Part shown: positions 38,099 through 50,179 of the stretch, piece by piece
How the letters are laid out: every line of letters starts with the position of its first letter
Position numbering within the stretch: position 1 is the stretch's first letter
From: Paraburkholderia nodosa
GTDB taxonomy: Bacteria; Pseudomonadota; Gammaproteobacteria; Burkholderiales; Burkholderiaceae
NCBI RefSeq assembly: GCF_001718195.1
Contig: NZ_MCNV01000002.1
Span: 124,001 to 188,000, forward strand
Direction: 5' to 3'
DNA: 64,000 bases
The notes under the pieces: model-generated
Seen by the model: the letters and a program-made list of their open reading frames with translations, nothing else
Databases searched by the model: none
Told to the model about the DNA's origin: nothing
Program-made: the position numbers and the translations under genes

Positions 38099-40327
38099 TC
38101 AGTAGGCCGCACGCAGGGCCTCCGTGGCCAAGGCAAGGCGCGACGCAATGACCTTCACCAGAAAGCGATGAAACTGCTGGGCGGCCACGGGGTCGTCCCG
38201 CTCGAGCGCAACGAGCGCCGCCAGCGACAACCTGCGCACCCGCGTCGGCGCCTCGGCGAACACGTCCGCGCTGCGCGGCTGCTGCGTGTATACGGCCATT
38301 TCCCCGATGACCGTGCCCGGCAGGCAGGCGCGCACCCGCACCGACCGCCCGTTGCCGAGCGGCAGCGAAACGGCGAGCCGCCCGCGCTCGATGAGGTACA
38401 GCGCGTCGCCCGGGTCCCCGCGAAGAAACAGCGCCTGGCCCGCCTGCAGATCCTGCACTTCGAGCCGCGTGGAGAGCGTGTTCAGCGCGCTGGCCGTGAA
38501 ATGCGGCGCGAGCAGTGAATTGAGGTCGTCACCGGGTTTCGGCGCGAGCGCGCTCGACGCGAGCAGCTGGTCTTCGACCCATTCCAGGCCCGCATCGAGC
38601 GTGTCGAATTCGCGAATACGCAGATTGAGCGTGCCGGTTTTCGTCAGCAGATCGCGCGAGCGCGACGGCAGCGCGGTCAGGATCAGGTCCGCGTCCGTCG
38701 CCGCGCAGAGCTGCCGCAGCTTGACGAAGCTGATCGACACCGACGCGTCGATGCCCTGGGTCGCCGCGAAATCAAGTACAACGAATCGAACCCGCACCGG
38801 AGTGCGCGCGGCGAGGCGCTCCCGTATGCGCTGGAGGATCGAATTGGCCGTGCCGAAAAAGAGAAACCCTTGCAGGCACATGCCGCACACCTGCGCGCCG
38901 AGCCCGCGCAACGCTTCGGTCTCCTCGATGTTGCGCTCGACATTCGAGGTCCGGGTGCGCAGGTCGAACGCCATGCGAATGCAGCTCACGCGGCCGTAGA
39001 GCAGCGTGAACATCACGCACGCGGCAATCACGCCCGCGCCCACGCCGATGAGCACGCCCCAGCCCGCGATCGTGCAGAGAATGACGGGCACGAGCAGATA
39101 CTCGTACCAGGCGAGCTTCGCCCAGGCGCCGACCACCCACTGCACGATGAGGCGCAGCCCCATGAAAAGCTGGAGGCCGACGAGCACCGGCACGGGAAAG
39201 AGCGCGACAAAACCGGGCGACGCGGCCAGCACGACGAGGCATGCGAGCGAGGCGAACACGCCCGCCAGCCGGCTCGTCGCGCCCACGCGCGCGTTGAGCA
39301 TCGAGCGATTGAACGACTGATAACCGACCATGCCGCCCAACAGACCGCTCGCGAGATTGGCGAGGCCCGCGGCCCGCAGCTCGCGATTGAGGTCGACTTC
39401 CTCGCCCGTCGCCGCGCCGATCGCCGTCGAATTCATCAGGATCGTGACGGCCGAAACCGAGGTGACCACGAGGCTCTCCGGAAGGTGTGCGGCGATCGCC
39501 GTCCAGTCGATGCCGCCCTGCCCGAGCTGCGCGCGCAGGTGCAGCTCCGGTAGCCCGGTGAGCCGCAGCGCAGCGCGCGGCAGCAGCAGGCCCATGGCGC
39601 GCGCGTCGTCGATCGACAGGCCCGCGGCACGCAGCAAAACGTAGAAGAGCACAATGCCGAAGGCCAGCGTGAGCGGCAGCGCGGCAACGTGCTTCCAGTT
39701 GCGCATCAGGATCGTGGCCAGCACGCCGACGACGAGCGCGGGCAACCATGCGAGCCAGTGGAGATGCGTCAGCAACGCGAGCGTGCGCCATTGCAGCGGC
39801 TCGCCCGTCATGACGCGAAACGCGCCGGCGAGCAGCAGATAGCCCGTGCCGGCGAGGAAACCGCCGAGGACCGGGTAAGGCAGGAACTGCAGCGAGCGGC
39901 TGCGCTTCGACGACCCGATTGCGTAGAGCACGACGCCGGTCACGAGCGAGCAAAGCGCGATGGCGATCAGCACAGTGAGCAGCAGCGTTTGCGGCGAACC
40001 GCCATCCGCCCGCACGCTGCTCGCGACGCCTGCCGCCACGCCCGCAAGAAACGCCGCCGCATTGCTGTCGGGGCCGCCGATGTTCAGGCGCATCGAACTC
40101 GTCAAGGCGATCACGAGCGCGGTGACGACACAGCTGACGAGCGCGGTGGGCACGCCGAGCATGGCGTAGCGGGCGAGATCGGCGCTGAAGATCAGCGTGC
40201 CGAGGCTCATCGCGTAGCACAGCATGACGAGCGCCGATACCGCGCCGGCCGCCAGATCGCCGGGCAGCGCCGCGATGCGCGAGCGCGGCGGGACGTCGGC
40301 GACAGTAACGGTCTTGCCCGGCTTCAC
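38099..40327 (-). CDS. SulP-family anion transporter with STAS and cyclic-nucleotide-binding domains
   Basis: A GTG start gives 742 residues. Residues ~20-430 form the SulP membrane core (about 12-14 segments; LNIGGPDSNAAAFLAG, YPVLGGFLAGTGYLLL, SGLLGGMVGYQSFNRS). A STAS domain follows (about 470-590, VVLDFAATQGIDASVSISF), and a cNMP-binding domain ends the protein (about 610-730), whose phosphate-binding cassette IGEMAVYTQQPRSA keeps the Glu and the Arg used to hold cAMP. SulP carriers move sulfate, bicarbonate or dicarboxylates. The direct divergent neighbour is an adenylate cyclase, so cAMP gating of transport by a locally made signal is likely (inference). Confidence 0.9.
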   Translation of the reverse strand: MKPGKTVTVADVPPRSRIAALPGDLAAGAVSALVMLCYAMSLGTLIFSADLARYAMLGVPTALVSCVVTALVIALTSSMRLNIGGPDSNAAAFLAGVAAGVASSVRADGGSPQTLLLTVLIAIALCSLVTGVVLYAIGSSKRSRSLQFLPYPVLGGFLAGTGYLLLAGAFRVMTGEPLQWRTLALLTHLHWLAWLPALVVGVLATILMRNWKHVAALPLTLAFGIVLFYVLLRAAGLSIDDARAMGLLLPRAALRLTGLPELHLRAQLGQGGIDWTAIAAHLPESLVVTSVSAVTILMNSTAIGAATGEEVDLNRELRAAGLANLASGLLGGMVGYQSFNRSMLNARVGATSRLAGVFASLACLVVLAASPGFVALFPVPVLVGLQLFMGLRLIVQWVVGAWAKLAWYEYLLVPVILCTIAGWGVLIGVGAGVIAACVMFTLLYGRVSCIRMAFDLRTRTSNVERNIEETEALRGLGAQVCGMCLQGFLFFGTANSILQRIRERLAARTPVRVRFVVLDFAATQGIDASVSISFVKLRQLCAATDADLILTALPSRSRDLLTKTGTLNLRIREFDTLDAGLEWVEDQLLASSALAPKPGDDLNSLLAPHFTASALNTLSTRLEVQDLQAGQALFLRGDPGDALYLIERGRLAVSLPLGNGRSVRVRACLPGTVIGEMAVYTQQPRSADVFAEAPTRVRRLSLAALVALERDDPVAAQQFHRFLVKVIASRLALATEALRAAY

Positions 40328-40514
40328 GTGAATTCCCGGTGGAATGCGCGAGGCGCGATGGGGAGCGATCCAGTATCCGTCCGCGCCGGAAAGCCTGTCA
40401 AACGCCGTACGCGGCCCGTGGCGCGCGCCTACACTGGAAATTCACCGGCACGATCCCCCGACGGGCTCGGGGCGGTTCGCATCAGGCAACCGGCATCGCA
40501 TCCAGGCGGCGAAC

Positions 40515-43500
40515 ATGGATATTGAGCAATGGCTGCACGCCCTGGGACTCGAGCAGTACGCGCAAGCGTTCGCGGCTAACGACATCGATCTCTCGCTGCT
40601 CGCGCAGCTGACCGACGCGGATCTGCGGGAACTCGGCGTGCAGTCGCTCGGCCACCGCAAGCGCATCCTCGCTGCCGCCGCGCCGAACCCGCCAGCCGCG
40701 GCTTTGCCCGTGGCGCAAACGGCGGTCGCCCCCCACGCGCTGGAGATCCCCGCGGACGAACGCCGGCAGGTCACCGTCCTGTTTGCCGATCTCTGCGGCT
40801 TCACCGCGCTTTCGCGTACGCTCGATCCCGAGGAGGTGCGCGCGCTGATCGGCCGCTTCACGGCGCTCGTCGACGGCATCGTGCTCGCCTGGGGCGGGAC
40901 GACGGACAGGCATATCGGCGACGCGGTGATGGCACTGTTCGGCGCGCCGCGCGCGCACGAGACGGACACGCTGCGCGCCGCGCGCGCGGCGCTCGAGATC
41001 CATGAGGCGCTGACGCCATTGAGCCTGCAGGCGGCACGCACGTTGCAGGCCCATATCGGCATCGCGAGCGGCGAAGTCGTCGCCGGCGCGCTCGGCTGCG
41101 TCGACGCGCGCGACTACACCGTCACCGGCAGTCCGGTGAACCTGGCCGCGCGCCTGCAGGTCGCGGCGGCGGCCGGCGAGACCTGGCTCTCCGATGACGT
41201 GGCGCGCGCGCTCGGCGACGCCGCCGTCTGCGACGCGCTCGGCGAGCAGTGCTTCAAGGGCATCGACACGCCGGTGCGCGCATGGCGGCTGCGCGCGATT
41301 TCGAGCGACCCGGCGAGCGAATCGGCGAAGACGGGTCAGAGCCTTTTCGTCGGACGCGAGGCCGAGCTCGAGCAGTTTCACGGTATCGTCCGCGCGTGCG
41401 TCGCGAGGCGGGCCGGCCACATCGTCCATGTGCGCGGCGAAGCGGGCATCGGCAAGACGCGTCTCGTCGACGAGATGCGCCGCCATGCGCAGTCGCAGGG
41501 CTTCGAGATCCATCGGGGCCTCGTGCTCGATTTCGGCGTGGGCAAGGGGCAGGATCCCGTGCACACGATCGCCGGCAGTCTGTTCGGTCTGCCGGCCGGC
41601 GCATCGAGCGACGCGCGGCGCGCCGCCGCCGCGCGGTTCGCCGCTGAAGGCAGCCTCGAGGCCGGGCAGCATGCGTTCCTCCACGACCTTCTCGACCTGC
41701 CGCTCGCGGACGAATGGCGAACCGTCTACGACGCCATGGACCACGGCGCGCGCAAGCGCGGCAAGCAGGCGCTCGCCGCGAGACTGACCGGCGACGCCTG
41801 CAGGCGGGCCGCCACGCTGATCGTCGTAGAAGACCTCCATTGGGCCGAGCCCGAAATGCTCGACTATCTCTCGGCCTTCGCCTCGGGCATCGCGAACGGC
41901 CCGGGCCTGCTCGTGACGACCTCGCGCGTGGAAGGCGACCCGATCGATGCGGCGTGGCGCGCGCGCTGCCGCGACATCCCGTTCGCGACGATCGACCTCG
42001 GGCCCTTGCGCCAGGACGAGGCACTGAGCCTCGCAGGCAACTTCATCGACGCGACGCAACGGGTCGCGCTCGCCTGCATCGAGCGCGCGGGCGGCAACCC
42101 GCTGTTCCTCGAGCAGCTCTTGCGCAACGCCGAGGAAGGCAGCGGCAACGCCGTGCCAGGTTCGATCCGCAGCCTCGTGCTCGCGCGGATGGACCGGCTC
42201 GCGCCGCGCGACCGTCTGGCGTTCCAGGCGGCTGCCGTGATCGGGCAGCGGTTCGGCATCGCGTTGTTGCGACGGCTCATCGACGACCCCGGCTACGTCT
42301 GCGACGGCCTGCTCGCCAATGCGCTCGTGCTGCCGGAGGGCGAAGAGTTTCTGTTCGCCCACGCGCTGATCCAGGAGAGCGCCTATTCGACGCTGCTGCG
42401 TGCGCGCCGACGCGAGTTGCACCGCTGCGCGGCCGACTGGTTCGCGCACGGCGACCCCACGCTGCACGCCCAGCATCTCGACCGCGCCGAGGACGAACGC
42501 GCGCCGCAAGCCTACCTGGCCGCCGCGCTCGCGCAGCGCACGGCGCACCTGCTCGAGGCCGCGCTGCGCCTCGCCGAGCGGGGCCTCGAGATTGCCCAGA
42601 GCGAGACGGACCGCCACAGCCTGAGCTGCTGCAAGGGCGAACTGCAGCGCGACCTCGGCGACATCGCGGGATCGATCGCGACCTGGCGCGCGGCGCTCGC
42701 AGCCGCCCCCGACGACGCCAGTCTGTGCCGCTGCCAGCTAGGACTCGCCGAAGGCCTGCGTGTGAGCGAAGGCCTCGACGAAGCGCTGGACCTGATCGAG
42801 GCTGCGCAGCGGATCGCGGAGCGCGATGACCGGGTGGCCGAACTCGCGAGCCTTCACTATCTGCGCGGCAACATCTACTTCCCGCTCGGCAAGATCGATG
42901 CCTGCAGCACCGAACACGAACGCGGGCTCGACTATGCGCGGCGCCTCGGCCTGCCGGAGGCCGAGGCCCGCGCGCTCGGCGGCCTCGCCGATGCCGCCTA
43001 CGCGCAGGGGCGGATGCGGACCGCGCACCGCCATTTCAGCGATTGCGTGGCGTTGAGCCGCGAGCACGGGTGCGGCCGGATCGAAGTCGCCAATCTGTCG
43101 ATGCAGGGCTTCAGCCGCATCTACCTGAACGAGCCGCGGCAGGCGCGCGAAGACGCCGTTGCCGCCGTGCGCGCCGCCGCGTTGATCGGGCAGCCGCGCG
43201 CGCAATTGCTGGGCGAGACGCTCGGCGTGTTCGCCTGCTACGAGCTAGGCGATATGCCGGCTACGCAGGTCCATCTGGAGCAGGAAAAGCGCGTGATCCG
43301 GCAATTGGGCGCGCGCCGGTTCGAAGCGCAGAACCTGGAAATGCAGGGACGTGTCTGGCTCGCCGATGGACGCCGCGGCGAAGCCGTCGATGCGCTGCGC
43401 GAGGCGCTTGCGATCTCGCGCGAGGTCGGCACGCAATTCTCCGCGCCGAAGAATCTGAGCGCCCTCGCCCGCGCGGTCGACGAGCATGACGAGCGCACGC

Positions 43501-43829
43501 GCCTGCTCGCAGAAGGCGCGGACCTGCTGCGCCTCGGCACGGTCGGCCACAACCATCTCTGGTTCTACCGCGACGCGATCGAGGCGATGCTGGCGGCCCG
43601 CGATCCGGCCGGCGTGCTGCGCTACGCGAGCGCATTGGAGGACTACACGCGGCACGAACCGCTGCCCTGGGCCGAGCTGTTCGCGGCACGCGCACGCGCG
43701 CTAGCGCGCGTCCTGCAGGCACCCGCCGACGATGGCGCGCGAGGCGAGCTCGCGCGCGTGCGCACCGTGCTGCTGCAGACCGGCTTCCAGCAATACCTGG
43801 CTGCCGTCGATGCAGCGCTTGCTGCTTGA
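40515..43829 (+). CDS. Class III adenylate cyclase with SAM, ATPase and TPR domains
   Basis: From ATG 40515 the product has 1104 residues. A SAM domain comes first (1-55, LHALGLEQYAQAFAANDIDL), then a class III cyclase domain (83-260: VTVLFADLCGFTALSRTLD and HIGDAVMALFG with metal Asp92 and Asp136), an AAA/STAND-type ATPase with Walker A GEAGIGKT and WAEPEMLDYLSAF, and a long TPR-like C-terminus. The substrate pocket has Arg132 where Lys is usual, and Thr202 (DYTVTG), the threonine of class IIIb cyclases, which are often bicarbonate-stimulated. The layout resembles mammalian soluble adenylate cyclase. It is cytoplasmic and is divergent from the SulP-cNMP transporter with 187 bp between starts. 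Confidence 0.88.
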   Translation: MDIEQWLHALGLEQYAQAFAANDIDLSLLAQLTDADLRELGVQSLGHRKRILAAAAPNPPAAALPVAQTAVAPHALEIPADERRQVTVLFADLCGFTALSRTLDPEEVRALIGRFTALVDGIVLAWGGTTDRHIGDAVMALFGAPRAHETDTLRAARAALEIHEALTPLSLQAARTLQAHIGIASGEVVAGALGCVDARDYTVTGSPVNLAARLQVAAAAGETWLSDDVARALGDAAVCDALGEQCFKGIDTPVRAWRLRAISSDPASESAKTGQSLFVGREAELEQFHGIVRACVARRAGHIVHVRGEAGIGKTRLVDEMRRHAQSQGFEIHRGLVLDFGVGKGQDPVHTIAGSLFGLPAGASSDARRAAAARFAAEGSLEAGQHAFLHDLLDLPLADEWRTVYDAMDHGARKRGKQALAARLTGDACRRAATLIVVEDLHWAEPEMLDYLSAFASGIANGPGLLVTTSRVEGDPIDAAWRARCRDIPFATIDLGPLRQDEALSLAGNFIDATQRVALACIERAGGNPLFLEQLLRNAEEGSGNAVPGSIRSLVLARMDRLAPRDRLAFQAAAVIGQRFGIALLRRLIDDPGYVCDGLLANALVLPEGEEFLFAHALIQESAYSTLLRARRRELHRCAADWFAHGDPTLHAQHLDRAEDERAPQAYLAAALAQRTAHLLEAALRLAERGLEIAQSETDRHSLSCCKGELQRDLGDIAGSIATWRAALAAAPDDASLCRCQLGLAEGLRVSEGLDEALDLIEAAQRIAERDDRVAELASLHYLRGNIYFPLGKIDACSTEHERGLDYARRLGLPEAEARALGGLADAAYAQGRMRTAHRHFSDCVALSREHGCGRIEVANLSMQGFSRIYLNEPRQAREDAVAAVRAAALIGQPRAQLLGETLGVFACYELGDMPATQVHLEQEKRVIRQLGARRFEAQNLEMQGRVWLADGRRGEAVDALREALAISREVGTQFSAPKNLSALARAVDEHDERTRLLAEGADLLRLGTVGHNHLWFYRDAIEAMLAARDPAGVLRYASALEDYTRHEPLPWAELFAARARALARVLQAPADDGARGELARVRTVLLQTGFQQYLAAVDAALAA

Positions 43830-44842: not shown

Positions 44843-46258
44843 TTACCTCGGCTCGAATACCGGGTACGAGGCCGTATCGATCAGCGACAGGGTATCGTCG
44901 CGCGAAAGCAGCCCGGATTCGTCGAGAATCTGAACGAGTGGCCGACCTTGCGCAACCGACTGTCGCGCCAGCTTGCTGACACGAGCATATCCAAGCTTCG
45001 GCACGAGCGCTGTGGCCACAGCCATCGAGTCCATCAGGTGTCGCTCATTGCATGCACCGTCGGCGGTGATGCCGGCGATACACTTCTGCGTGAACCTCTC
45101 GATGCCGTTGGTCAGCAGCATGATGCTGTCGAACACACGGGAGGCCACTACGGGCTCGAAGTGATTGATTTCCAGTTCTCCATACTGAACCGCCTGAGCC
45201 ACTGCGACATCATTGCCGATAACGGCAAAGCTCAACTGGATCATCGCCATCGGCAGCACAGGATTCACCTTGCCCGGCATGATCGACGAGCCGGCCTGCG
45301 CCTCCGGCAAGCGCAACTCCCCAATTCCGCCCACGGGACCGGAGGAGAGCACCGTCAGGTCCGATGCAATTTTCGCAATGGACGCCGCACAGGTGCGAAG
45401 CTCACCCGAAACGCGCGAGAACACGTCCATGTTCTGCATCGCGTCGAACGAGTTTGCCGGCGCGACATAGTCGACGCTTGCGATATCCGCGAGGTGCCGG
45501 TAGACCGCAGTTCGATACCCGGCCGGTGCACCAAATCCCGTACCGATAGCCGTACCACCGAGCGGCAGCGTACGCAGCTTGTCGCGAACCGCCATCAGTT
45601 CTTCCGCGAGACGTCGTGTGAGCGACGCGTAACCGCCGAAAAGCTGACCGAGACGCATCGGCTGCGCATCCTGCAGACAGGTACGGCCGAGGTGAAGGAC
45701 GTCGGCAAACTCGATAGCCTTCCGATCGAACTGCGCAGCCAGTTTTTCCACTTCCGCAATGAGCGGTCCGAGCATTGCGTAGGTCGCAATCTTCAGCGCA
45801 GCGGGATACACGTCGTTCGTGGACTGCGAGCGGTTGACATGATCGTTGGGATGGATCACGTCGTACGAGCCCGGAGCGTGACCCAAAAGCTGCTGCGCCC
45901 GATTGGCGATCACCTCGTTGAAGTTCATGTTCGTCGACGTTCCACCCGAGCCCTCGAGCAGATCGACGATCAGTGAGTCACGAAACTTGCCTTCGATGAT
46001 TTCCTGACACGCGCGGCTGATTGCGTCGCATTGTTCCGGCGTGGTGACATCGGTGTCCCGGTTCGCGAGCGCGGCCGCCCATTTGCACTGCGCGAAAGCC
46101 ACCGCGAACGCCGGGTAGTGAGCAATGCTGAGAGGAGAAACCGTCAGATTGTCGACGCCCCTCACCGAGTTGACGCCATACAATTTCTCGACCGGAATTT
46201 CGACTTCACCAACGTAATCGCGTTCGGTACGCGTTTCAGCTTTGGCTTGACTGTTCAT
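44843..46258 (-). CDS. aspA: Aspartate ammonia-lyase (aspartase)
   Basis: The ATG at 46258 has AGGAAC upstream and gives 471 residues, the normal aspartase length. Family motifs include EGSGGTSTNMNFNEV, PNDHVNRSQSTNDVYP, the signature loop GSSIMPGKVNP with the catalytic serine, and the fumarase/aspartase fold throughout. It deaminates L-aspartate to fumarate and ammonia. It is the last gene of a four-gene operon after asparaginase, an MFS carrier and a LysR regulator; its start overlaps the regulator's stop by 23 bp, so translation is coupled. Aspartase rather than fumarase is chosen from the asparaginase in the operon and from aspartase-like sequence. Confidence 0.92.
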   Translation of the reverse strand: MNSQAKAETRTERDYVGEVEIPVEKLYGVNSVRGVDNLTVSPLSIAHYPAFAVAFAQCKWAAALANRDTDVTTPEQCDAISRACQEIIEGKFRDSLIVDLLEGSGGTSTNMNFNEVIANRAQQLLGHAPGSYDVIHPNDHVNRSQSTNDVYPAALKIATYAMLGPLIAEVEKLAAQFDRKAIEFADVLHLGRTCLQDAQPMRLGQLFGGYASLTRRLAEELMAVRDKLRTLPLGGTAIGTGFGAPAGYRTAVYRHLADIASVDYVAPANSFDAMQNMDVFSRVSGELRTCAASIAKIASDLTVLSSGPVGGIGELRLPEAQAGSSIMPGKVNPVLPMAMIQLSFAVIGNDVAVAQAVQYGELEINHFEPVVASRVFDSIMLLTNGIERFTQKCIAGITADGACNERHLMDSMAVATALVPKLGYARVSKLARQSVAQGRPLVQILDESGLLSRDDTLSLIDTASYPVFEPR

Positions 46259-47252
46259 TTGAGTTCCTGTTTCCAATATCAATCAGTTGTTCAATTTCCT
46301 GACCGAGAGCCTTTTTCACTCGCGGGAGGAACGATGTTTTGATCACTTCGGACGCCGTGTCGCATGCATCTTCGAAAAACGCGCTGTATTCGTCGCGCCG
46401 CGCTACCAGATACAGCGACCGTTCGAGGCCGAGTCTGTCGACAACGTGGCGAGTCACTCCATCCGCGTAAGCCGCGCCCTGAAGCAGACACATCGGCGAG
46501 GTCACGGCCCAGCCGATGCCTTCGGCCACCATCGATGTCAGCGCGTCGGCGTTGTCGAGCTCGAGCCTCGTCGGCGTACGCACTTCAATTCGACGCAGAT
46601 AGCGCTCGATCTGCATGCCGACCTGCGATTTGCGGTTAAAGCGCACGATGGGCAATGCGTCCGCCAGGGCCCGGATGTCCTCCACGGTGCGGACCGACTT
46701 GCGGAAATCCCGCGGCGTGATGACAAAGTACTTCTCGGAGAGGAGCCGGAAGCGAACTACGTCATTGGCGTCGATCAACGCGTCGCTCGTGACGATGAGG
46801 TCCAGGTCGCGCCGCAGCAGCGCCTCGCCTTGCTGCGGGCTCAATCCCGTACGGATCGACAGTTGCGATACCTTCTCCAGCAGCCGCTTCGTAAGAGCCG
46901 AGCCGCAGGTAGCCGCGAACGAGTCGACAAATCCGATGCGAAGATCAGGCTTGATGCCGCGCCCCGCTTCGACGACCTGGGCCTTCAGATTGGCGATCTC
47001 CTCGCTAAGTACCGCTCCGCGGTTCCTCAATGCGATGCCGTATGGCGTCAATGCGAGCGGACGGGTCGTACGATTGACCAGCACGACCCCCAGTTCGTCT
47101 TCCAGCTGGCGGACGATCTGCGAGACACCCGATTGGGAAATGCCCATGCGTGCGGCCGCCCCGGACATGCTGCCTTCCTCCGCCACTGCGACGAAGACCT
47201 GCACCGCATACATATCGATCGGCTTGGTGAACGACACGATGGACTCTCCCAT
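46236..47252 (-). CDS. LysR-family regulator of asparagine/aspartate use
   Basis: From ATG 47252 the product has 338 residues; upstream codons are also open. The N-terminal winged helix (YAVQVFVAVAEEGSMSGAAA, ISQSGVSQIVRQLEDELGV) and the effector-binding domain are complete. Unusually for a LysR gene it is not divergent from its targets but lies inside the operon, 61 bp after the MFS gene and overlapping aspA, so it would be made together with the enzymes and could form a feedback loop. A LysR-type dyad lies upstream of the operon at 50180. Confidence 0.88.
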   Translation of the reverse strand: MGESIVSFTKPIDMYAVQVFVAVAEEGSMSGAAARMGISQSGVSQIVRQLEDELGVVLVNRTTRPLALTPYGIALRNRGAVLSEEIANLKAQVVEAGRGIKPDLRIGFVDSFAATCGSALTKRLLEKVSQLSIRTGLSPQQGEALLRRDLDLIVTSDALIDANDVVRFRLLSEKYFVITPRDFRKSVRTVEDIRALADALPIVRFNRKSQVGMQIERYLRRIEVRTPTRLELDNADALTSMVAEGIGWAVTSPMCLLQGAAYADGVTRHVVDRLGLERSLYLVARRDEYSAFFEDACDTASEVIKTSFLPRVKKALGQEIEQLIDIGNRNSNEQSSQS

Positions 47253-47313
47253 AGTTACTGTCAGCAGACGTTGCCACGAGTGCGCCAACGTGGGAGCGTC
47301 ACACGCCAGGCCT

Positions 47314-48693
47314 TCAGTGGCGATGTCCCGCTGTATGCAGGCTCACGTTCGGTGCGCCGTCCGCCGCCGGCTCGTTGCTGCCCTGACCAGAACCCATATC
47401 CGAAAGACTCTCTTTGCCGGTTTCCGGTGCGAACAAATGACAGAACACGCCGCCGAACACCAATACGGCCACGCACACGCCGAGCGCTGCGTGAATGCCA
47501 ACCTGTTGCGCGGCCACGGGCAGAAGAAACGTACTGATCGCGGAACCGAAGCGGCTGGAGGCAACGGCGAGCCCGACGCCTGACGCGCGCAGGTGGGTCG
47601 GGAAAAGCTCTGGCGGATAGACGAATTCGAGGTTCGCGGCGGCCGAGAGAATACAGGCGAAAATGCCAAATGCGAGGATTGTGCCGAGCGGACCGAATCC
47701 GGCGTAGGCGAGCACCGCCAGTCCGATCGCTGCGAGATAGAAGCTACCAATGAGAAACGCGCGGCGCGAGAGTCTGTCGACGATTAGCAATCCAAAGATT
47801 GCTCCGGCGAACAGCAGCACGTTATAAACGAGTCCGCCGACAAAGCCGTCCTTGACCTGCAAGGCTTGCAGTACCTTCGGCGAAAAGGTACCGAGCGCAA
47901 AGTATGGAATGACCTGGCACGTGTAGAACACGCAGCCGACCAGGGTGTTCTTTCTCCAACGGGCCGAGAGCAGTTCCGACCACGCACCACGACGTTGCTC
48001 GGGCGCGGCTGTCGGTGCGGGCAGAATGGTCTCCGCACCGAACTTTGCACGGATGATCTTCAGTGCCTCGTCCTTCCGGCCGCGCTTCATCAGCCACATG
48101 GGCGACTCGGGTACGCCGAGCCGGAACGGGAGAATGAGCAGTGCCGGCAGTCCACTCGCAGCCAGCATGATCCGCCAGGCGTCGGGGCCGATATCGCGAA
48201 TGGCAAAGCCCGCGAGATACGCGCAGACGTAACCCGCTGCCCAGGCTGCTGCGAGCACACTCAGGAGACGGCCGCGATAGCGGCGTGGGGAAAACTCGGT
48301 GACGAGCGATTTGCTTACGACGTAGTCGGCGCCGAGAATCAAACCAAGCAGCACGCGCAATACCAGCAGCTGGGTCGGCGACGTCACAAAGAATTGCGCT
48401 GCAGAAATCGCCGCAAACAGCAGCATGTCGAAGGCGAAAATGGTGCGCCGACCATATCTGTCCGCCACGGGCCCGGCAAACATGCTGCCAAAAAACAAGC
48501 CGGCAAGGGACGCCGCACCGAGTGCGCCCATCCAGAGCGCGTTCAGGTGCAGCGCTCCCGCCGCCATGCTCACCGCGATGCCGATGATGCCCAGCACGAA
48601 ACCGTCGCTGAACTGTCCGCCTGTGCCGCTGAACGCCACGCGCAAGTGGAAACCGCGCAACGGAACGTCCTCCATCAATATCGGCTTGCTCAC
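47314..48693 (-). CDS. MFS transporter, probable aspartate/dicarboxylate carrier
   Basis: A GTG start with AGGAGACG upstream gives 459 residues and 12 membrane segments. It belongs to the sugar-porter-like MFS branch: GPVADRYGRRTIFAFD, PRRYRGRLLSVLAAAW, PESPMWLMKRGRKDEALKI and FPTHLRASGVGLAVASSRFG. Members take up sugars, aromatic acids or other metabolites with cations. Placement between a periplasmic asparaginase and an aspartase suggests it imports aspartate released outside, but this is inference from context only. Confidence 0.85.
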   Translation of the reverse strand: MSKPILMEDVPLRGFHLRVAFSGTGGQFSDGFVLGIIGIAVSMAAGALHLNALWMGALGAASLAGLFFGSMFAGPVADRYGRRTIFAFDMLLFAAISAAQFFVTSPTQLLVLRVLLGLILGADYVVSKSLVTEFSPRRYRGRLLSVLAAAWAAGYVCAYLAGFAIRDIGPDAWRIMLAASGLPALLILPFRLGVPESPMWLMKRGRKDEALKIIRAKFGAETILPAPTAAPEQRRGAWSELLSARWRKNTLVGCVFYTCQVIPYFALGTFSPKVLQALQVKDGFVGGLVYNVLLFAGAIFGLLIVDRLSRRAFLIGSFYLAAIGLAVLAYAGFGPLGTILAFGIFACILSAAANLEFVYPPELFPTHLRASGVGLAVASSRFGSAISTFLLPVAAQQVGIHAALGVCVAVLVFGGVFCHLFAPETGKESLSDMGSGQGSNEPAADGAPNVSLHTAGHRH

Positions 48694-48983
48694 TTTCGTC
48701 TCCTGGACTCTGGTTGTCAGCGAGGCGCCTGCCTGCGCCTTCTGAAACCAGTGTAGGGACTCGGATTCAAGAAAACAGCATATCCGGTGTCAGTATCAGC
48801 AACTCTAATACTATGTCACGCGGAGGTTGAAGTGGAGCAGTTCAACGTACGCCAACCGGTCGAGGCTCGAGCCGGGTGCGGCTTCGGGCCTCATGGAACG
48901 ACATGCGGCGCGGCGGTGTGCTTGGGCAGCACCGTCGCGCCTGAACGAATCATCTTCACCGGCCCTGAGCCGGCAAAAGCGAT

Positions 48984-50072
48984 TCAAAACTCGTGGAGCA
49001 TTGCCTGGATACTCGCCGGATCTTTGGTCGTCGTCAGCGCGAGCATCAGCAGAATGCGGGCCTTTTGGGGGTTCAGATCGTCACCGAGAAGACCCACATA
49101 GGCCGGATCTTCCGGTATGAAGCCGCCCCCTGTGCGGGAAGAGCGGACCACAATCACCCCCTGGGCGATCGCCTTCTTGATGGACGGAAGAGTGAGAAGC
49201 GATTCGCTGCCTGCTCCAACGCCTGCGACGACAATGCCCTTTGCTCCGTGCGCGACTGCGGCGTCGTAGATGTAGCCGCCGTCATTCTGATAGCCGTAGA
49301 CAATATCGACTTCCGGCAGAGAATCGAGTTTCGACACGTCAAATGGCGTTGCAGTGGTATTGCGTTTCAGCACGGACGTCTCGAAGTGGGGAACCTCGTC
49401 CACCAGCGTGCCCAGGTAGCCGGCGTCGTTTCCCTTGAACGTATCCGGTGTCGTGCCGTTGGTCTTCGTGGTGTAGCGAGCCGAGCCGATCCGGTCGTTC
49501 AGCACGATCATGACGCCGTGGCCGCGCGCCTCCGGCGAGGCCGCAACCGTGACTGCCTGCAGGAGGTTGCTCGGACCATCGGCGCTGATGGCCGTCGACG
49601 GACGCATCGATCCGGTGACTACCACGGGCTTGTCGCTCTTGACGACGAGATCGAGAAAATAGGCCGTTTCCTCGAGGGTATCGGTGCCGTGAGTCACCAC
49701 GACACCTGCGATGTCCGGCTGAGCGAGAAGCTGATTCACGCGCTTCGCCAGTTTCAGGAGGATATCGTTGGTGATGTTCTCACTCCCGACATTCGAAATC
49801 TGTTCGCCGGACACCTGTGCAATCTTGCCCAGTGACGGGACTGATTTGAGAAGCGCATCGGCCGTCAGGACGCCGGGCTTGTAGCCCGTCGTCTGCGTCT
49901 CACTGCCCGCGGTACCTGCGATCGTGCCGCCGGTTGCCAGCACCGCTACGTGGGGCAGTTTATCGGGGGATGTGGATTGCGCCATGGCCGGGGCCACTGA
50001 GAACAGGCAGAGTGCAAGCCCGGCTAGAAGCCGGCCTAAGTCGTTGCTCATATGAGCGCGGTTGTGTTTCAC
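48984..50072 (-). CDS. ansB: Type II L-asparaginase, periplasmic
   Basis: The GTG at 50072 has GGAGAC seven bases upstream; the product has 362 residues. A signal peptide (about 1-31, ending APAMA) marks export. Catalytic threonines are T50 in VLATGGTIAGT and T130 in VVVTHGTDTLEETAYF, next to D131; the SMRPSTAISADGP segment with the Lys-containing loop is also typical. It hydrolyses asparagine (often also glutamine) to aspartate and ammonia in the periplasm at high affinity. It heads the operon with MFS carrier, LysR and aspA, and a dyad symmetric site lies 108 bp upstream. Confidence 0.93.
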   Translation of the reverse strand: MKHNRAHMSNDLGRLLAGLALCLFSVAPAMAQSTSPDKLPHVAVLATGGTIAGTAGSETQTTGYKPGVLTADALLKSVPSLGKIAQVSGEQISNVGSENITNDILLKLAKRVNQLLAQPDIAGVVVTHGTDTLEETAYFLDLVVKSDKPVVVTGSMRPSTAISADGPSNLLQAVTVAASPEARGHGVMIVLNDRIGSARYTTKTNGTTPDTFKGNDAGYLGTLVDEVPHFETSVLKRNTTATPFDVSKLDSLPEVDIVYGYQNDGGYIYDAAVAHGAKGIVVAGVGAGSESLLTLPSIKKAIAQGVIVVRSSRTGGGFIPEDPAYVGLLGDDLNPQKARILLMLALTTTKDPASIQAMLHEF

Positions 50073-50179
50073 GGGATGTCTCCAGATTGGAAGAGTGAAA
50101 CTCTGGATAGCCATCGAGATTGGCGTATCGCTGAAGACGAGTGTAGTGACACATTCAGGAAATCAAATCAGGCACGGGC

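Follow-up and report, generated by a model that had tools for sequence, protein, structure and literature searches.

The window, a stretch of 64,000 nucleotides from the genome of Paraburkholderia nodosa that was analysed as a whole (contig NZ_MCNV01000002.1, positions 124,001 to 188,000), contains two divergent genes, one for a SulP transporter with a C-terminal cyclic-nucleotide (cNMP) domain and one for a class III adenylate cyclase. Both open reading frames had been pointed out in an earlier note made from the sequence alone, and it was verified that they exist as described and are intact. The note had proposed that cyclic AMP (cAMP) made by the cyclase acts on the tail of the neighbouring transporter. 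The genes and their features are as follows (aa, amino acids):

38099 to 40327, minus strand: SulP-STAS-cNMP transporter gene, 742 aa, GTG start (open reading frame and Pfam)
39131 to 40264, minus strand: SulP/SLC26 transmembrane domain, aa 22-399 (Pfam PF00916 Sulfate_transp, E 2.1e-33)
38624 to 38875, minus strand: STAS domain, aa 485-568 (Pfam PF01740, E 4.9e-9)
38204 to 38452, minus strand: cyclic-nucleotide-binding domain, aa 626-708 (Pfam PF00027 cNMP_binding, E 4.8e-16)
38255 to 38308, minus strand: complete phosphate-binding cassette IGEMAVYTQQPRSADVFA, aa 674-691 (strict pattern match; E676 for the ribose, R685 for the phosphate)
40328 to 40514, no strand: divergent intergenic region common to both genes, non-coding, since the frame before 40515 is not conserved
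40372 to 40401, minus strand: sigma-70-type promoter of the transporter gene, TTGACA, 18 nt, GATACT (10/12 match, 0.1 expected)
40515 to 43829, plus strand: SAM-cyclase-AAA-TPR adenylate cyclase gene, 1104 aa, ATG at 40515
40512 to 40676, plus strand: SAM domain, Pfam aa 57-111 (PF00536, E 2.8e-17)
40752 to 41261, plus strand: class III cyclase catalytic domain, Pfam Guanylate_cyc aa 137-306 (PF00211, E 4.6e-21)
41346 to 41897, plus strand: AAA_16 ATPase domain, Pfam aa 335-518 (PF13191, E 9.1e-15)
41436 and 41817, plus strand: Walker A motif GEAGIGKT and Walker B motif LIVVED, respectively, within AAA_16
42642 to 43418, plus strand: TPR region (Pfam TPR_12, TPR_11, TPR_2)

The longest cyclase frame opens at 40344. 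Because its 57 codons before 40515 are out of frame in close orthologues, in which conservation of the cyclase starts at the ATG at 40515, the latter is probably the true start, and the residue numbers R132 and T202 of the earlier note hold when counted from it. Both promoter hexamers of the transporter gene are kept in close orthologues and sister species. The motif TGTGA-N6-TCACA, i.e., the CRP site, had no match in the intergenic region, and the window holds fewer matches than expected by chance. Rfam and tRNA scans yielded no matches.

The transporter was assigned to the SulP/SLC26 family by a Sulfate_transp score of 116 bits (cut-off 23.2), followed by a STAS score of 36.3 bits (cut-off 22.6). 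Its score for the TIGR00815 sulP sulfate permease model was 88.1 bits, below the cut-off of 380.45. The earlier note had described the cAMP-binding cassette in the cyclic-nucleotide-binding domain (CNBD) as intact-looking, and this was borne out: it fits the strict PROSITE-type pattern, it contains the Glu and the Arg that characterize cAMP-binding CNBDs, and G675, E676, R685, S686 and A687 are invariant in 31 rows of orthologous transporters. The top PDB sequence match of the CNBD is a protein kinase A chain. The AlphaFold model of the transporter has a mean pLDDT (predicted local distance difference test) of 84.7, and its first 590 residues match SLC26/SulP structures with Z scores of 30-41. 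The transmembrane (TM) domain matches BicA best (Z 41.0, root-mean-square deviation 2.8, 364 residues, 21% identity), SLC26Dg gives Z 39.6, and cAMP-bound GlxR is among the Foldseek matches of the model. The transported substrate is presumably an anion, and the CNBD would be expected to bind cAMP.

The catalytic domain of the cyclase has the two metal-binding residues D92 and D136, R132 at the Lys position, T202, N209 and R213. Apart from position 132, all of these are invariant in 31 rows of orthologous cyclases, which are 69-95% identical across their full length. The residues are those of a class III adenylate cyclase, and the threonine T202, which the earlier note had used to place the enzyme in class IIIb, was confirmed. 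The solved structures nearest to the domain are 2w01, 3r5g (CyaB) and 1wc0 (CyaC), and in 3r5g and 1wc0 the position of the substrate lysine aligns with Arg132. The note had also listed Arg132 as an oddity. The residue itself is correct, but it is the state of a clade, Arg being present in 18 and Lys in 13 of the 31 rows, and the replacement of the base-site Lys is confined to the clade of the window. That Arg132 might inactivate the enzyme was considered and rejected, because the change is conservative and clade-specific and all other catalytic residues are intact. Arg132 (40908-40910) is paired with Thr204 in one Paraburkholderia clade, and sister species have Lys and His at these positions, both of which lie near the active site. 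The proposed likeness to the layout of soluble adenylate cyclase (sAC) held for the AAA and TPR parts but not for the remainder, as the protein has one cyclase domain and an additional SAM domain. The product of the enzyme is probably cAMP.

The earlier note had suggested checking how often the two genes occur together, and to this end 146 genomes of the genus Paraburkholderia were surveyed, with genes in the loci called from reading frames and profiles. The transporter and the cyclase are each present in 64 genomes; both were found in 63, each of them alone in 1, and neither in 81, so that 63 of the 64 transporter genomes share the cyclase and the neighbours are conserved in relatives. In 57 genomes the transporter has a cyclase as its immediate neighbour, 56 times in divergent orientation. 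These adjacent cyclases comprise 49 divergent orthologues, 7 divergent SAM-cyclases of about 44% identity and 1 such cyclase on the other side of the transporter (G029). Altogether, a SAM-cyclase of 42-45% identity replaces the orthologue in 8 genomes, 7 times at the same divergent site. The flanking genes vary between species and the two genes remain together, and therefore the pair moves as a cassette. In 4 genomes the conserved gene that would otherwise lie beyond the cyclase follows the transporter without it, and the orthologous cyclase is located elsewhere in the genome; no common second gene was found to adjoin these displaced copies. All SulP genes were additionally compared in a sample of 30 genomes, a cyclase being defined by the PF00211 domain. 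A cyclase lies within about 1 kb of 13 of the 14 SulP-cNMP genes and within 6 kb of none of the 80 other SulP genes. Class III cyclases are present in 14/14 sampled genomes that have SulP-cNMP, and SulP-cNMP is present in 0/14 sampled genomes that are devoid of a class III cyclase. The corresponding Fisher values, 5e-15 and 8e-7, overstate the significance, because the species are related and shared ancestry is ignored. The analysis confirms the pair as genuine and intact, with strong conservation in Paraburkholderia and relatives.

The cyclase partner turned out to be exchangeable. The divergent pair is found in Paraburkholderia, Trinickia, Pararobbsia and some Caballeronia. Paralogous SulP-cNMP genes (46-52% identical) are arranged in tandem with a CHASE2-cyclase gene or, in one genome, with a different SAM-cyclase gene. 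The CHASE2-cyclase pairs occur in Caballeronia, Trinickia and Burkholderia, and a CHASE2-cyclase also lies near one distant proteobacterial SulP-cNMP homologue. In Caballeronia terrestris (L149) a SAM-cyclase pair and a CHASE2-cyclase pair are located side by side. Outside the Proteobacteria, three genomes of Polyangium (Myxococcota; L174:3492-6785, L176, L177) have a gene for an sAC-like cyclase-AAA-TPR protein directly upstream of a SulP-cNMP gene, the product of which is 38% identical to the window transporter. The partner in L174, which was scanned with Pfam, has two cyclase domains. In these sAC-type proteins a Gly occupies the position of sAC Lys95. On the transporter tree (FastTree; long branches) the partner state requires 11 changes. 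The catalytic letters D-K/R-D-T-N-R are intact in nearly all cyclase partners, when the two-domain partners of Polyangium are read separately. The class III catalytic domain is the sole part that the swapped partners have in common, and therefore the cyclic nucleotide itself would be the link, which is the strongest argument that the sequences offer.

SulP-cNMP and cyclase genes are strongly linked in Burkholderiaceae, and the linkage also occurs in Polyangium; a general linkage across Proteobacteria was rejected, as a profile search revealed a nearby cyclase for 1 of 24 distant homologues. At least one class III cyclase is encoded in 43 of 43 further genomes examined that have a SulP-cNMP gene, most of these SulP-cNMP genes being unlinked. 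Two side observations concern degenerate partners and one a transporter with other neighbours. SAM-cyclases with the degenerate letters DQDAIR are located near SulP-cNMP in L165/L073 and in L133:3-3065. In the latter, a Pararobbsia, the degenerate copy adjoins an intact one, and the two could form a heterodimer. The third concerns a Caballeronia clade that has the transporter with no cyclase close by; in its locus L141:9281-13433 the genes after the transporter encode DUF3280, a YNCE-like beta-propeller and a TonB receptor.

Other sources and receptors of cAMP were sought in the window's genome, which has a size of 8.6 Mb and is 99.99% complete. This genome contains one PF00211 cyclase, namely that of the window, and a profile search for class I cyclases (PF01295) gave no match here or in any of 30 genomes from the genus. 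The cNMP domain gave 12 matches, including two in a peptidase-ABC exporter, two thioredoxin-reductase-like proteins, a protein with a weak FliG match and a Crp-like regulator, and the transporter alone has a complete cassette. The exporter, which has a C39 peptidase (L208:171-3239, contig C2:489500-494500 of the same genome), carries its two cNMP domains at the N-terminus, and their cassettes miss the strict pattern.

Taken together, these results suggest that Paraburkholderia and relatives make cAMP locally to switch a SulP transporter on or off. We consider it probable, with some reserve, that the locus is a two-gene signalling cassette in which the cyclase supplies the cAMP that gates the adjacent transporter. 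The soluble SAM-cyclase-AAA-TPR protein would integrate a cytosolic signal, probably a nucleotide state or a partner, via its AAA and TPR parts, and its SAM domain may cluster the cyclase. The cAMP produced near the membrane would occupy the CNBD at the C-terminus of the neighbouring SulP-STAS transporter, and this domain would act through STAS on the transport domain and so alter the transport rate. The input may vary with the partner, being cytosolic for SAM-AAA-TPR and extracellular for CHASE2. Gating of transport by cAMP binding to the CNBD is thus a prediction from sequence. The core idea of the earlier note was strongly supported on this level, because the pairing is conserved, the partner swaps keep the cyclase domain alone, the catalytic and cAMP-pocket residues are intact, and neither a second class III cyclase nor a class I enzyme was found in the window's genome.

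Several observations weigh against such a role of cAMP. The genome has three CYTH matches, and class IV enzymes could also make cAMP; the CYTH family includes class IV cyclases, its members being mostly triphosphatases. One alternative partner, in Paraburkholderia monticola, has the degenerate catalytic residues DQDAIR. No cyclase was found within about 7 kb of nearly all of the 24 distant proteobacterial SulP-cNMP genes, of the SulP-cNMP genes of Duganella and Herbaspirillum or of the transporter gene of one Caballeronia clade; some of all these genes are on short contigs. Some CNBDs are not under cyclic-nucleotide regulation (PMC6052114), and yeast Vsb1 is a SulP protein with a similar C-terminal fold, which in the view of its authors serves oligomerisation rather than the binding of a ligand (PMC13160679). 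The two genes might accordingly be inherited together without direct gating, the cyclase feeding a general cAMP pool and the CNBD being structural or binding something else. The pair is indeed unlinked in several genomes, and dimerisation is the role that the Vsb1 authors favour for the C-terminal domain (PMC13160679). However, the cassette is invariant in the orthologues and no other cNMP domain of the genome has a complete one, the swaps retain the catalytic domain alone, and other SulP genes are unlinked to cyclases, so that co-inheritance of this kind appears unlikely. The flow might also be reversed: the transporter would then be a sensor (transceptor) that controls the cyclase according to its ion occupancy, and cAMP would act elsewhere. 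This would agree with the divergent orientation of the genes and with the protein-interaction domains SAM and TPR of the soluble cyclase, but the cAMP receptor domain sits on the transporter itself, CHASE2-type partners without SAM or TPR are also used, and the best CRP-like protein checked in the window's genome stays far under the CRP cut-off (55 versus 266 bits). A reversed flow is therefore regarded as very unlikely. A messenger role of cyclic GMP (cGMP) instead of cAMP is more improbable still. CNBDs and class III enzymes may use either nucleotide, and the exchange K132R is an unusual base-site residue, but adenylate cyclases typically have a Lys-Thr pair, which the sister clade and nearly all partners retain, the window cyclase has T202, and the transporter cassette has Arg-Ser-Ala, where cGMP sites often carry Thr.

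The earlier note had also suggested a local loop: the transporter would carry an anion such as bicarbonate, this anion would activate the class IIIb cyclase, and the cAMP formed would in turn gate transport. Its attraction lies in Thr202, in the nearest solved relatives 2w01, CyaB (3r5g) and CyaC (1wc0), a group that contains known bicarbonate responders, and in the inclusion of BicA in the SulP fold. However, the transporter reached 42.3 bits with the NCBIfam BicA equivalog, the cut-off of which is 880. In a profile alignment the TM8 carboxylate of BicA (Asp258), SLC26Dg and AtSULTR4 corresponds to T295 of the transporter, and T262 of BicA to N299, and therefore a BicA-type Na+ site is unlikely. 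Bicarbonate acts on human sAC via Lys95 and Arg176 (PMC12250328). Judged by how far they lie from the metal Asp and from Arg416, these residues correspond to R132 and to the catalytic N209 (PMC12250328, PMC12867704), a comparison that is only partly informative, since N209 takes part in catalysis in a homodimer. In animals other than mammals, sAC is regulated through pH and not through bicarbonate (PMC12867704), and thus neither Thr202 alone nor the sAC layout is a proof of bicarbonate activation. Moreover, CHASE2 cyclases stand in for the soluble cyclase beside the same transporter family, and no carbonic anhydrase or other bicarbonate gene was found among the neighbours checked with Pfam. 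With the BicA cut-off missed, the TM8 carboxylate and the Arg switch of sAC absent, and CHASE2 partners in use, the bicarbonate loop was not supported and is judged quite improbable; bicarbonate is a possible substrate or activator, without specific support.

Several known systems resemble the proposed cAMP-gated transporter or its partner. The sperm Na+/H+ exchanger SLC9C1 (sNHE) and sAC are, like the window pair, a secondary transporter with a C-terminal CNBD and a soluble cyclase partner; SLC9C1 is gated by cAMP via its CNBD, and the exchange of the cassette Arg to Gln abolishes the effect (PMC6052114). Unlike the window transporter, SLC9C1 belongs to an unrelated family, has a voltage sensor and lacks STAS, and its pairing is cellular and not a gene cassette. 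Yeast Vsb1/Ygr125w shares with the window transporter the SulP part, STAS and a C-terminal jelly-roll domain, which is required for Vsb1 function (PMC13160679). It differs in mediating vacuolar cationic amino-acid transport, which needs Asp223 and Tyr227, and in having no cyclase pairing; the places of these residues are taken by Tyr38 and Leu42 in the window transporter, as placed by eye without the Vsb1 sequence. By its description, the nitrate transporter LtnT of Synechococcus elongatus is also a SulP protein with a C-terminal domain of this type. We know of no cyclase partner of LtnT. It has been named as the sole earlier report of such a C-terminal domain in a transporter (PMC13160679). 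BicA, a Na+/HCO3- SulP transporter, has the same transmembrane fold, but lacks a cNMP domain and has the TM8 Asp258 where the window transporter has Thr295. The window cyclase shares a class III catalytic domain with Thr with sAC/ADCY10, CyaC and CyaB, and AAA and TPR with sAC. It differs from sAC in having one cyclase domain instead of two (C1-C2) and an N-terminal SAM, and in lacking the Arg176 switch. By family tests, the pair is a member of neither BicA nor sAC; it would resemble a cAMP-gated carrier with its own cyclase.

SAM-cyclases and CHASE2-cyclases have already been described; a published account of a dedicated cyclase paired with a SulP-cNMP transporter was not found in the open-access literature. 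Bacterial cAMP is mostly viewed as an input into transcription through CRP. What the locus indicates is a membrane transporter under the direct allosteric control of its own cyclase, in a genome for which no further class III cyclase and no class I enzyme were found; in sperm, a transporter with a CNBD is likewise paired with a soluble cyclase. If such control is true, the SLC26/SulP family, to which prestin and genes of human disease belong, would gain a bacterial model of cyclic-nucleotide gating. We are evenly divided on a wider reading, according to which bacteria have a modular class of cAMP-gated SulP transporters with dedicated cyclases, in which the sensor part (SAM-AAA-TPR, CHASE2 or tandem sAC) is swapped and both the transporter and the cAMP link are kept, the transporter being the main cAMP target in some species, P. 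nodosa among them.

Beyond the pair, the genes at 44843-50114 of the window encode consecutively an aspartase/fumarase-type lyase, a LysR regulator, an MFS transporter and an L-asparaginase-like protein, an ordinary-looking cluster for the use of aspartate and asparagine.

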